NCBI RefSeq assembly: GCF_900113005.1 | Contig: NZ_FONW01000009.1 | Coordinates: 1-64,000, forward strand | Reading direction: 5' to 3' | Length of the DNA: 64,000 nt | Origin: Sunxiuqinia elliptica | GTDB taxonomy: Bacteria; Bacteroidota; Bacteroidia; Bacteroidales; Prolixibacteraceae | Shown: positions 35,226-38,814 of the stretch, piece after piece | Layout: each line of letters begins with the position of its first letter | Numbering within the stretch: position 1 is the stretch's first letter | Made by a program: the position numbers and the translations under genes | Notes under the pieces: generated by a model | Database searches by the model: none | What the model saw: only the letters and a program-made list of their open reading frames with translations | Told to the model about the DNA's origin: nothing

Positions 35226-35486
35226 ATGAAGTTATTACTAGTAACCCTATTGGTTTTCCTTATCAATCTTCCATTCGGAGCACTTCGAGCAAAACACAAA
35301 AAATTCACCCTGATGTGGTGGATTTATATTCACATTCCAGTGCCATTCGTCATTTTATTAAGAATATACAGCGACATTGGCTTTGCTCTTTACACCTACC
35401 CTTTGCTCGTAGGAGCATTTTTCGGAGGACAATTGATTGGTCGTAAATACCTCGCCAGAAAGAAAGACTCTTCAAACAAAGCCTAA
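35226..35486 (+). CDS. Small inner-membrane protein
   Basis: An 86-residue hydrophobic protein with about three membrane segments: MKLLLVTLLVFLINLPFGAL, WWIYIHIPVPFVILLRIY and LYTYPLLVGAFFGGQLIG, then a basic C-terminal tail (RKYLARKKDSSNKA) that should stay in the cytosol. I do not recognise a named family. It is monocistronic and convergent with the nucleotidyltransferase gene. Coding status is supported by the start after an A/T-rich leader and by a consistent topology. Confidence 0.6.
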   Translation: MKLLLVTLLVFLINLPFGALRAKHKKFTLMWWIYIHIPVPFVILLRIYSDIGFALYTYPLLVGAFFGGQLIGRKYLARKKDSSNKA

Positions 35487-35531: not shown

Positions 35532-36653
35532 TCACACTTCTCTTCTAAAAAAACGGGAATACAGTCGAGCATGATCGCCATACCACTTTCGATCAACAAG
35601 CCGCTTAAAAATATACGAACGGCTTTCTTTCAAATAAAATGCTTTGAAAATCTGTAACAAATACCCCTTCAAAATACGCTGCCCTAGAAAGATCGTATGA
35701 CTAAACACACGCCGAAACAAGTCTGATTTTAAGTTTAAGGCGTGTTTATTTTTCAACCACCATGAAGCAAATCCCGGGTTAAAATGCTTACTTCCTTCCC
35801 CCAGAAGCAGCTTATTCACCAATGAGAAGTACGCTACCGCTTTTTGCTTCTTCTTTATTAGTGGTAAAGTCTCGGGTAGAGGAAATCGCTTGGCCAGCAA
35901 TAACAAATCGAAAGCAGCCCGCAAAGAAATCCGACCAAACAAATCTCCCTCGTTAGACAGCTGGCTATGAATAAAGTTATGCACAATTTTATGCCGATCG
36001 GAAGGCACGAAGCATCCATCCAAGGACTTCACCTCAACTTGTTCTCCCCGAACCTGAGAGGAGCTAAACCAGCTGGCAAACTCCGCATCAACCGGAATTC
36101 GGTGCACTTCAACAGACGCGACATAATGAGGATGAAAAAGACGAGGGTAATGCTTGAGTTCTTCTACCTTCGAATAGGATGAAACCGGGCGATCCTGTAA
36201 GTAACCTGCATTCAACAAAATTTCAGCTGCAGGCAAATAAGACGCTTCGTCAACCAAAAAATCAATATCGCTCATCATGCGATCTCCTAAATCATCGTAA
36301 ACACAATCCAGCAAGTGTGCGACTCCTTTCAAAAAAGTGGGTTTAATGCCATGCTCATTCAGCAAGGCCACAATTTTCTCCACTTGCGCCAAGATCGCTT
36401 CATTTCGTTCTACATTCAAGACATACACCTCATGTAGATGCTCCACCAAGTCATTAGGAAGATAACTTAACAACTGATGCTGCTCAAAACGCCGAAAGAT
36501 GGCTGGTAATATCAAGTGATTACTACAAAGCCTAACAAACTCTTCCCAATCTATGGTTGACGCTAATCGTATAACCTCATTCCTGAAACCTGGCTGCTCA
36601 TCCAGAGCCAAACATCCACCAACAAAATAAAAAAGATCCTTCTTATTCATCAT
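35532..36653 (-). CDS. Nucleotidyltransferase family protein (NTP_transf_5)
   Basis: A 373-residue protein of the uncharacterised nucleotidyltransferase family PF14907. The N-terminal helical part (WEEFVRLCSNHLILPAIFRRF) leads to the nucleotide-binding core FLKGVAHLLDCVYDDLGDRMMSDIDFLVDEA, where the DID motif supplies metal ligands, and then a VEVHRIPVDAEF strand. Family members occur in lasso-peptide and other peptide-modification clusters beside HPr-kinase-like genes. Its ATG (36653 or 36650) lies within the last codons of the upstream gene, so the two are translationally coupled. The substrate is unknown. Confidence 0.8.
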   Translation of the reverse strand: MMNKKDLFYFVGGCLALDEQPGFRNEVIRLASTIDWEEFVRLCSNHLILPAIFRRFEQHQLLSYLPNDLVEHLHEVYVLNVERNEAILAQVEKIVALLNEHGIKPTFLKGVAHLLDCVYDDLGDRMMSDIDFLVDEASYLPAAEILLNAGYLQDRPVSSYSKVEELKHYPRLFHPHYVASVEVHRIPVDAEFASWFSSSQVRGEQVEVKSLDGCFVPSDRHKIVHNFIHSQLSNEGDLFGRISLRAAFDLLLLAKRFPLPETLPLIKKKQKAVAYFSLVNKLLLGEGSKHFNPGFASWWLKNKHALNLKSDLFRRVFSHTIFLGQRILKGYLLQIFKAFYLKESRSYIFKRLVDRKWYGDHARLYSRFFRREV

Positions 36654-37791
36654 CAAAGAGCTTTTCAACAATCTTCAAAGCCTTAGGCGTATTGGAATAA
36701 TTCAACTCATAAAACGAAACTCCATCAATCCACTCAAAAAAAGTTTCAACACGATCAGCAAAAGGAGGCACCCAAACCTGATCAACAAGTCGCTTCATTG
36801 CATCGGCACTGCTCAGGGGAATAAACTCACAATCAGTACGCTCATCATAGGTTATAAACAGAATCTCCTTTAACGGGAACACCATACCCATTTTATCATT
36901 CTTGATTGGCCAGTAGCGAACCTTTTTTTCTGGAGTTGCATTTACGATAGGAGTTTCCTCTAAGGCAGGGTAATGCGATTTCAACACATCCAACGCCCCC
37001 TCTTTTACCGACATGGCGATCGGAAACGGATGCGCTTTAAACATCGTTTTATCAACAGGCACAAAGTCATCGGAGATTAAATGATAGCCCTTGGCCTGCA
37101 ACAATGCAGCCATCGTTGTTTTTCCACTTCCGGGAGCTGCCGAAAAAAGAACGGTCTTTTTCTCATTCGTTATTGCTGATGCATGTACGGTCATTAACCA
37201 ATCGTTCTCTGTTTTATCATGCAACACATTAACAAACTCAAGAAATATCCGCCCTTTCACCCAATGACTCTCGCCGGCACCCCATATCCCCATCACTTTT
37301 CCATTCATCCGAAAAACGACTTCGCCGTTATAAGCAAACAATTCAAAATCAAGCACCTCTTTACAGTCGCCATCTCCTATTACTAAATGCTTAACTAGCG
37401 GATGAATATAACGCTCAAGCGCTGGGCCACTATAACGAAAACGCACACACTTATCTTTCAACAAATAAGTGTGCTCCGAGAACGGCATAAACCGATAATT
37501 ATCCAAGTCTTGCTCAAAGTCCAAATCATGATCCATGGGAACCATTTCATTAAACGAGCTTATTCTCTCCTTCATCTCACTTATAAAAGTTCGACTCTCC
37601 CCTGCTGTCATCTCATACCGGCCGACAAGCTCCTTTTCGATTGCTTGAGGGGCGTGATTTCCCGTAATTTTATCAAAAACAAACCAAGCAGGTCCTTCCA
37701 ATAAAAAATACGAATTACTATTCTTGAGCCACACCAAGTGAGTTTCCTCTAACTGCTTCTTCACATAAGGAATAGAAACTATTTTAGCCAT
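36643..37791 (-). CDS. PqqD-like domain fused to HPr-kinase-like domain
   Basis: A 382-residue protein. Residues about 15-80 resemble a PqqD-type RiPP recognition element: HLVWLKNSNSYFLLEGPAWFVF, a turn, then helices ending SEMKERI. Residues about 110-380 match the HprK/serine-kinase C-terminal fold: H203 in VHASA, a Walker A loop SAAPGSGKTT (217-226), then LISDD (238-242) as in HprK. In the family such proteins phosphorylate Ser residues of HPr or of lasso-peptide precursors. HPr itself is an unlikely target because no PTS gene is nearby. It overlaps the nucleotidyltransferase gene by 8-11 bases and is divergent from a small Gly/His-rich exported protein. Assignment of the PqqD part is moderate, of the kinase part good. 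Confidence 0.7.
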   Translation of the reverse strand: MAKIVSIPYVKKQLEETHLVWLKNSNSYFLLEGPAWFVFDKITGNHAPQAIEKELVGRYEMTAGESRTFISEMKERISSFNEMVPMDHDLDFEQDLDNYRFMPFSEHTYLLKDKCVRFRYSGPALERYIHPLVKHLVIGDGDCKEVLDFELFAYNGEVVFRMNGKVMGIWGAGESHWVKGRIFLEFVNVLHDKTENDWLMTVHASAITNEKKTVLFSAAPGSGKTTMAALLQAKGYHLISDDFVPVDKTMFKAHPFPIAMSVKEGALDVLKSHYPALEETPIVNATPEKKVRYWPIKNDKMGMVFPLKEILFITYDERTDCEFIPLSSADAMKRLVDQVWVPPFADRVETFFEWIDGVSFYELNYSNTPKALKIVEKLFDDE

Positions 37792-38194
37792 TGTTTAAAA
37801 TCATTACATCATTCAACACCTAATAAAGATAACAAACATTCATTGGGTGATTGATTAACGTAATAAACACACTACACAAATTTGCAACTTACACTAAGCG
37901 GTCTCCATGCTCAATACTTTTTCAGCAACCATTTGCATCGGCTCTAAAACACTAGGCAAACAGCCTATTACAAAGGAAATATCGAAAAATATCAGAGTTC
38001 AATTTAGCCTTCATCTCAACAGGTAAAAGCAAAAAACAGAATTGCTCTCGTGCATAAATTACGTAAAATTACCCATTGTTCACTTCAGCTATGACTCAGA
38101 TATTTACACCATAAAATCTTCGTAACTTCCACTAGGAAGCTTTAGTTGTATCTCAACCCTAAAAGATTTAATATTAATTAATACTACAAATGCA
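37792..38194. other. Divergent intergenic region
   Basis: A 403-base A/T-rich region with no gene. It must carry the promoters of the kinase-like gene (-) and of the small exported protein (+). No perfect TAnnTTTG box was found on either strand; a short hairpin AGGC-AAACA-GCCT lies near 37955. Confidence 0.5.
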
Positions 38195-38524
38195 ATGAAA
38201 AAGAAGGACACACAAACAACTAAACCCCTCGACTCCAAAAATTCAGGAAAGAAAATGACGAGGAAAGAAGCCATTAAAAAAACAGGTTATGCAGCAGCTT
38301 CTGCCGCTACGATGATGCTACTGCTGAACAACCAAGCTCAAGCTAACGGCAACCAAGGAAACAATGGTTACAAAATCGGTGGCCAGAACAACAACAATCA
38401 ATACAAAATTGGAGAAGGACATCAAGGAAGCCACCCAAACCATGGCAACGGCCGTGGAAATGGGAATGGCCATGGACACGGTTACGGACATGGCAAGGGG
38501 CCTTCATCATCTCCATGCTTCTAA
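38195..38524 (+). CDS. Small exported Asn/Gly/His-rich protein, possible modified-peptide precursor
   Basis: A 109-residue protein that I do not recognise. Residues 1-23 are Lys/Thr/Ser-rich. Residues 21-50 form an export-signal-like segment: basic MTRKEAIKK, hydrophobic AAASAATMMLLL, and a cleavage site AQA near 50. The predicted mature part (51-109) holds two YKIG units separated by an Asn tract (QNNNNQ), then a Gly/Asn/His-rich region (GHGHGYGHG), ending SSSPCF with the only Cys. It could be a metal-binding (His-rich) secreted peptide or a substrate of the divergent PqqD/HPr-kinase-like and nucleotidyltransferase pair; both are inference. Alternative start: Met21. A strong terminator follows. 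Confidence 0.6.
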   Translation: MKKKDTQTTKPLDSKNSGKKMTRKEAIKKTGYAAASAATMMLLLNNQAQANGNQGNNGYKIGGQNNNNQYKIGEGHQGSHPNHGNGRGNGNGHGHGYGHGKGPSSSPCF

Positions 38525-38739: not shown

Positions 38740-38813
38740 GGCGAGGTAGCTCAGCTGGTTAGAGCGCATGATTCATAATCATGAGGTCGGCGGTTCAAGC
38801 CCGCCTCTCGCTA
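38740..38813 (+). tRNA. tRNA-Met (anticodon CAT)
   Basis: A complete 74-base cloverleaf: acceptor GGCGAGG pairs with TCTCGCT (G-T at both ends), D arm with AGCTCAGCTGGTTAGAGC, anticodon stem CATGA/TCATG with anticodon CAT at 38774-38776, T arm GGCGG-TTCAAGC-CCGCC, discriminator A. CCA is not encoded. The initiator features (unpaired first position, three G-C pairs in the anticodon stem) are absent, so it is the elongator type; an Ile tRNA with modified CAT cannot be fully excluded. It has its own promoter and terminator. Confidence 0.93.
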
Positions 38814-38814
38814 C

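Follow-up and report, generated by a model that had tools for sequence, protein, structure and literature searches.

What does a kinase fused to a PqqD-like domain act upon when it is encoded beside a nucleotidyltransferase and opposite a small, putatively exported protein? This arrangement occurs at positions 35,532 to 38,524 of a 64,000-nucleotide stretch of Sunxiuqinia elliptica DNA (contig NZ_FONW01000009.1, positions 1 to 64,000), the whole of which is referred to here as the window. The locus probably encodes a pathway akin to those for ribosomally synthesised and post-translationally modified peptides (RiPPs), yielding an exported, phosphate-decorated peptide. It would resemble the pathways for linear polyphosphorylated peptides (LPPs) in Bacillota, with the RiPP recognition element (RRE) fused to the kinase and an export signal serving as the leader. 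An initial annotation had proposed that the small protein is the substrate of the enzyme pair. The RRE-kinase and nucleotidyltransferase with an associated small gene are supported by our analysis; a Ser-rich C-terminus is not a feature of the family, and close precedents exist.

The genes were found where they had been placed, with the fusion gene overlapping the nucleotidyltransferase gene (by 8 nt from its ATG start or 29 nt from its TTG start) and the small gene divergent, 403 bp from the fusion start. The two overlapping genes are probably co-transcribed. The features are as follows, each with its basis.

35532-36650 (ATG start) or to 36671 (TTG start), minus strand: PF14907 nucleotidyltransferase-like protein (open reading frame (ORF) and PF14907 match)
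36643-37791, minus strand: fusion of an RRE (PqqD-like) and an HprK-like kinase, 382 aa (sequence, structure model, conserved residues)
37549-37767, minus strand: RRE domain, fusion residues 9-81 (model, Foldseek to TfuB1/TbiB1, PDB profile)
36652-37200, minus strand: HprK/PEPCK-like kinase core, fusion residues ~198-380, with Walker A at 217-226 (family match, structure)
38195-38524, plus strand: small precursor, putatively exported, 109 aa (ORF and leader family)
38195-38344, plus strand: predicted leader and export segment, precursor residues 1-50, conserved MTRKEAIKKTG...TMMLLL...AQA (14-leader alignment)
38345-38521, plus strand: Gly/His/Asn-rich core, precursor residues 51-109 (sequence)
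38429-38431, plus strand: candidate modified Ser79, in SHP (S.?P motif)
38504-38512, plus strand: candidate modified Ser104-106, in SSSP (S.?P motif)
38740-38814, plus strand: tRNA-Met (CAT), downstream of the small gene

A structure model of the fusion (pLDDT 87.1, pTM 0.84; 11 sequences) places three strands followed by three helices at residues 9-81, clearly the fold of an RRE as modelled. Foldseek matched this region to the lasso leader-binding protein TfuB1 (6jx3_B; target TM 0.72, root mean square deviation 1.9) and to TbiB1 (5v1v_A; target TM 0.75, root mean square deviation 1.7), both with a probability of 1.00 but E-values of just 0.007-0.012. Both structures were solved with leader peptides bound. 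TfuB1 was also the top PDB profile match of the N-terminus (E 0.0013), and no NCBIfam family was matched there at E<=1. RRE similarity is thus present in the region that had been described as PqqD-like, a description that holds by structure and is weak by sequence.

The kinase half matches TIGR04352 (HprK_rel_A) over residues 199-378 (E 4e-18), and in a PDB profile search it hit 3tqf, a solved HPr(Ser) kinase structure (E 0.0022). By Foldseek, its model is PEPCK-like, with 20 matches at E<=0.001, the likeness to HprK being weaker. The Walker A motif reported at residues 217-226 is present and reads SAAPGSGKTT. Residues H203, K224, D241 and D242 are invariant among nine homologues, which agrees with a His-Lys-Asp-Asp motif that has been reported in the kinases of lasso pathways (PMC9266682). 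HprK-like kinases (poly)phosphorylate a Ser of leader-bearing precursors (PMC9266682). Two kinase relatives of altered form were also seen, one split in two pieces with a stop and with the RRE part absent (G007:C55:40307-41001), the other a 571-aa frame in which additional sequence separates the RRE from the kinase (L041:1807-3510). The identification of the partner as a PF14907 nucleotidyltransferase proved secure (E 2.5e-33, 116 bits vs a cut-off of 31), with K108, G109, D128 and D130 invariant across 12 homologues; we take PsmN to belong to the same family. For hexose to be added to a phosphorylated Ser, the nucleotidyltransferase homologue PsmN is required, nucleotidylation not being excluded (PMC9266682).

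By sequence, the small protein is a member of a family whose Tat/Sec-like leader (Tat, twin-arginine translocation) is conserved. The two YKIG units, the GHGHGYGHG stretch and the SSSPCF end listed in the initial annotation are all present. The leader follows the pattern [ST]R[KR][EDQ]A[IL], then Lys and Gly, a hydrophobic stretch that is often TMM.LL and usually an AxA site; all 14 aligned leaders share the R, A, K and G, one of them carrying D at the S/T position. The region beyond is variable, mostly short, or a longer Gly/His/Asn/Ser-rich tail (window, L085, L089 and L090). An S.?P motif follows the leader in 28/30 family members, and 26/30 have an aromatic residue within the last six positions. 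The S.?P motif, and not the Ser-rich C-terminus that had been put forward as the modified site, is therefore the family feature, making Ser79 or Ser104-106 the candidates for modification in the window protein. Ten of the small proteins were scanned against NCBIfam, none scoring above a family cut-off. TatC was found in 14/14 Bacteroidota genomes examined, as well as in 11/14 controls, hence its presence says little.

A small gene with this leader adjoins the kinase in 12 of the 19 assessable full-length kinase loci, the window included. It lies upstream on the same strand in L033, L035, L036, L037 and L038, and upstream or divergent in L082, L084, L085, L089, L090 and L093, with a divergent arrangement like that of the window in L085, L089 and L090. 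L034 was left out of this count (contig end), and L086, L091 and L092 were dropped as duplicates (same contigs as L032, L033 and L034).

Co-occurrence was surveyed across three sets, 247 genomes of the order, 395 of the phylum and 7 further genomes found through the kinase, taking E<1e-10 as a strong leader match. In the order sample, strong leader matches occur in nine genomes, all with the kinase, full length in eight and a contig-end fragment in one (G244); scoring G244 as kinase-negative gives a Fisher p of 2.6e-13. In the phylum sample, the full-length kinase and strong leader matches fall in the same five genomes (Fisher p 1.3e-11). Across both samples, every genome with a strong leader match thus has the kinase, or in one case a fragment of it. 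The leader was present in 7/7 of the further genomes, one locus (L093) having a kinase with a diverged N-terminal part (11% identity). Overall, the full-length kinase and the small-gene family are both present in 19/20 genomes, a set in which near-identity was checked only for the three dropped duplicates. The leader profile was built partly from kinase neighbours; G058, G197, G244, G334, G556, G639, G640 and G644 contributed nothing to it, and all eight carry copies away from the kinase. Several copies per genome are common to some of these, with six each in G334 and G556 and eight matches in G644, one with a stop. Weaker leader matches were left out of the counts (G055, G120, G139, G190 and one place in G064 in the order sample; G267, G477, G530, G565 and G587 in the phylum sample). 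Kinase matches not counted as full length were those in 26 of the 35 matching genomes of the order sample, including G007, G038 (571-aa frame), and G154 and G244 (contig fragments), and in 132 of the 137 matching genomes of the phylum sample, the latter nearly all short and around the Walker A region. The genome survey and co-occurrence bear out the prediction that, among relatives, the small gene accompanies the pair of kinase and PF14907 genes.

The initial annotation knew of no described system of this make-up. Two close precedents exist. In the LPP systems, which are stated to be limited to Bacillota (Popov et al. 2026, PMC13381572), LppK phosphorylates core Ser3 of linear precursors. These share with the window an RRE, an HprK-like kinase, a nucleoside triphosphate (NTP) transferase, a precursor with a conserved N-terminus and a variable C-terminus, and, going by the ORFs read near the locus, the lack of a cyclase; LppN and the PF14907 protein are likened by the NTP transferase label. 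Cleavage is also comparable, being signal-peptidase-like in LPP and suggested by an AxA export-type leader here. None of the six ORFs scanned around the locus matches an SpI-like peptidase or MsbA-like exporter family; the remaining ORFs were inspected visually only, and the genome further afield was not searched. In contrast to the discrete RRE of LPP systems, that of the window is fused to the kinase; the window leader carries a predicted export signal and no YxxP motif, the hosts are Bacteroidota, and the precursor genes are dispersed, mostly behind cargo genes of the type IX secretion system (T9SS). As read here, the window system works like an LPP pathway yet is not classed as one, since it has neither the discrete RRE nor the YxxP leader.

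The second precedent is the HPr-rel-A cassette, known by annotation (NCBIfam TIGR04352 and TIGR04353), which combines a kinase, a PqqD-family protein and a PF14907-type nucleotidyltransferase, and which in Sphingomonas has in front of it the gene for a protein bearing a twin-arginine signal. PqqD is a separate protein there, as opposed to the fusion in the window. The Sphingomonas kinase reaches 228 bits against TIGR04352 (cut-off 200), compared with 65.5 for the window kinase, and the Sphingomonas PqqD protein scores 60 bits against TIGR04353 (cut-off 35), by which the window N-terminus is unmatched. From these scores the window cassette is classed as a divergent relative of HPr-rel-A that fails its kinase and PqqD models. 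A literature search that left out preprints and most subscription papers found no paper naming the HPr-rel-A cassette and none joining T9SS and PqqD, and none of the kinase terms is present in RRE-Finder.

Searching plasmids with the kinase retrieved 23 records, all of them below 80% query coverage, and 12 of these loci (alphaproteobacterial or Vibrio) were read. In 10/12, the gene for the kinase or the nucleotidyltransferase has, no more than ~2 kb away, one for a protein of small or medium size that bears an RR leader and an AxA site. The RR-leader proteins of Rhizobium, Ensifer and Novosphingobium are Gly-rich. In Sphingomonas, a twin-arginine protein is followed by a separate PqqD and then the kinase, whereas in Vibrio the RR-leader protein precedes the kinase and nucleotidyltransferase. 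Plasmid pMt-1 of Methylobacterium tardum carries a 94-aa ORF (L175:5118-5402), unannotated, that encodes a Tat-like leader and stands directly before an RRE-kinase-like fusion. Because most plasmid records lack a gene table, the nucleotidyltransferase was seen annotated in five only. The Bacteroidota and plasmid leader profiles match each other (probability 93.7, E 1.9e-7; 7 of 10 plasmid leaders), which suggests a related form of the pathway in Proteobacteria.

In the pathway that we favour, the RRE of the fusion would bind the conserved leader of the precursor, a role suggested by its modelled fold, and the HprK-like domain would add at least one phosphate to a core Ser in the cytoplasm, by analogy with PadeK, PsmK and LppK. 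The PF14907 protein may then extend the phosphate with a hexose or a nucleotide, as PsmN would suggest. Judging by its sequence, the leader could double as a Tat- or Sec-type export signal, in which case general machinery would export the precursor and cut after AxA, presumably after AQA in the window precursor. The product would act at the cell surface.

Several observations weigh against this pathway. Pfam PqqD matches the fusion N-terminus with an E-value of only 0.15 and reaches E<=0.1 in just 4/21 relatives (best 1.8e-4); a profile comparison with five stand-alone lasso PqqD-like proteins gave a probability of 9.9, so that the RRE assignment draws on the model and the PDB matches instead. 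The window kinase scores 65.5 bits against HprK_rel_A, well under its cut-off of 200. Phosphate modification of the small protein is read across from PadeK, PsmK and LppK, and the protein that corresponds to the PF14907 one in LPP systems, LppN, was inactive in its test host (PMC13381572). The Y/WxxP motif of LPP and lasso leaders is absent from residues 1-50 of the window precursor and from the 14 aligned leaders. The window leader has RK where a Tat signal would have RR, which renders the Tat route uncertain. No Ser is present near the core start of the window protein, and a Ser occurs among the first six core residues in just 13/30 members, as counted with a crude cut-site rule. No small gene was found near the kinase in 7/19 loci (L032, L039, L081, L083, L087, L088 and L094), and one genome of the order sample (G099) has a full-length kinase with no leader match.

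The role of the product may be tied to a feature of most family members that is not visible from the window alone. Of 30 collected small genes, 25 directly follow, on the same strand, a gene ending in a T9SS sorting domain, at gaps of 7-272 nt (535 nt for the second gene of a tandem pair). TIGR04183 was matched by 24/24 distinct cargo tails and by 9/9 further tails (drawn from 13 loci, of which L201 and L203 gave no ORF), compared with 3/20 in a contrast set composed of 19 of 26 downstream neighbour tails and one opposite-strand upstream tail. With 79 TIGR04183 domains in G334 and 84 in G556 (27 in the window genome, G000), chance adjacency to a T9SS gene is ~2% for G334 and G556, assuming ~4000 genes each. 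The linked sorting domains are unusual. The motif that we take to be named PNP is present in only 1/24 of them, compared with 27/30 unlinked domains (29/30 if any residue is allowed before PNP), the unlinked set having been taken from the top TIGR04183 scores in G000, G334 and G556 and being biased accordingly. The exceptions without an upstream cargo gene are the window, L085, L090, L037 and the divergent copy of L089. No T9SS partner was found for the window copy: a linked-tail profile gave 17 matches in the window genome, and 11 of the 12 read are ordinary PNP domains. The pathway therefore seems able to exist without linked cargo. In known T9SS systems, cargo with a type A sorting domain receives an aminoacyl linking sugar (PMC7468200, PMC12618676). 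The family members here likewise mostly follow TIGR04183 cargo genes; a small peptide gene tied to the cargo is not mentioned in the accessible parts of those papers, and the linked domains mostly lack PNP.

The product could be a free secreted peptide, acting as a signal, matrix component or competition factor, with the T9SS protein as its carrier, receptor or co-regulated partner but not joined to it; we hold this tentatively, as somewhat less likely than not. Conserved leaders, variable cores and several copies (six in G334 and in G556, eight matches in G644) fit distinct products. The biological role of LPPs is itself unknown, biofilm being no more than a suggestion (PMC13381572). No observation, however, sets a free peptide apart from a second possibility, an unlikely one, that the modified peptide is an anchor or acceptor for the PNP-less cargo, with the sortase cutting the sorting domain and joining cargo to the short phosphate-sugar peptide encoded beside it. 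Each cargo gene would then bring its own peptide gene, one RRE-kinase/PF14907 pair would serve all, and the window would be a form of the pathway without linked cargo. By analogy, the peptide would correspond to the aminoacyl linking sugars in Porphyromonas and Tannerella, though made by the ribosome; known cargo is attached through an amide bond to linking sugars of the N-seryl or N-glycyl type (PMC7468200). The position of 25/30 small genes directly behind a cargo gene, the TIGR04183 matches of those tails and the absence of PNP from 23/24 linked domains would all fit such an anchor. Against it stand the five copies with no cargo gene directly upstream (window, L085, L090, L037, one in L089) and the single PNP-less, linked-type domain among the 12 read in the window genome. 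So does the related cassette of alphaproteobacteria, a group in which T9SS is not known.

That the small protein is instead an unrelated neighbour, for example a His-rich metal-binding exported protein, we consider very improbable. The 403-bp divergent gap, the His-rich core and the seven of 19 kinase loci lacking an adjacent small gene would allow it, but the divergent arrangement is repeated in L085, L089 and L090, the leader is conserved, and co-occurrence at the level of genomes disfavours a chance neighbour. Least credible is a degenerate lasso pathway that has lost its cyclase and protease, for although lasso-type clusters with kinase and PF14907 genes are known from the order as well (L043-L045, L047), the window genome has no match to the lasso B2 leader peptidase (NF033537; the only lasso test made on the genome, and the one on which a lasso pathway was rejected), the leader family is unlike the lasso precursors of those clusters, and the three-gene set recurs cyclase-free in many genomes. 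The description of the system as lacking lasso cyclase and protease genes accordingly stands genome-wide for B2, and for the macrolactam cyclase among the ORFs read near the locus, the genome not having been searched for it. Phosphorylated and glycosylated lasso peptides such as paeninodin and pseudomycoidin involve an HprK-like kinase acting on a precursor Ser and the nucleotidyltransferase homologue PsmN, but there the Ser is C-terminal and a cyclase and B2 are present (PMC9266682).

If the favoured phosphopeptide pathway is correct, linear phosphate-modified RiPP-like pathways reach beyond Bacillota, to which PMC13381572 confines them, into Bacteroidota, with a related form in Proteobacteria. 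It would also name substrates for an enzyme cassette that is annotated in databases without one. The pairing of most collected small genes with genes for large T9SS cargo of unusual sorting domain makes the role of the peptide directly testable.

Some minor observations were made alongside. A hydrophobic 86-aa ORF with no family match adjoins the PF14907 gene at 35226-35483 (plus strand). Lasso-type clusters in L043, L045 and L047, comprising by eye a kinase, PqqD, B2, a cyclase-like and a sulfotransferase-like protein, are followed by large proteins with tails matching TIGR04183 (E 2.9e-10, 9.6e-13 and 2e-10, respectively), so that the arrangement of a peptide with T9SS cargo may recur there. 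Near small-gene/T9SS pairs, L033:13470-15215, L134:2182-2838 and L136:1592-2251 encode what we take to be secreted proteins resembling phage tail-collar or microcystin-dependent proteins.

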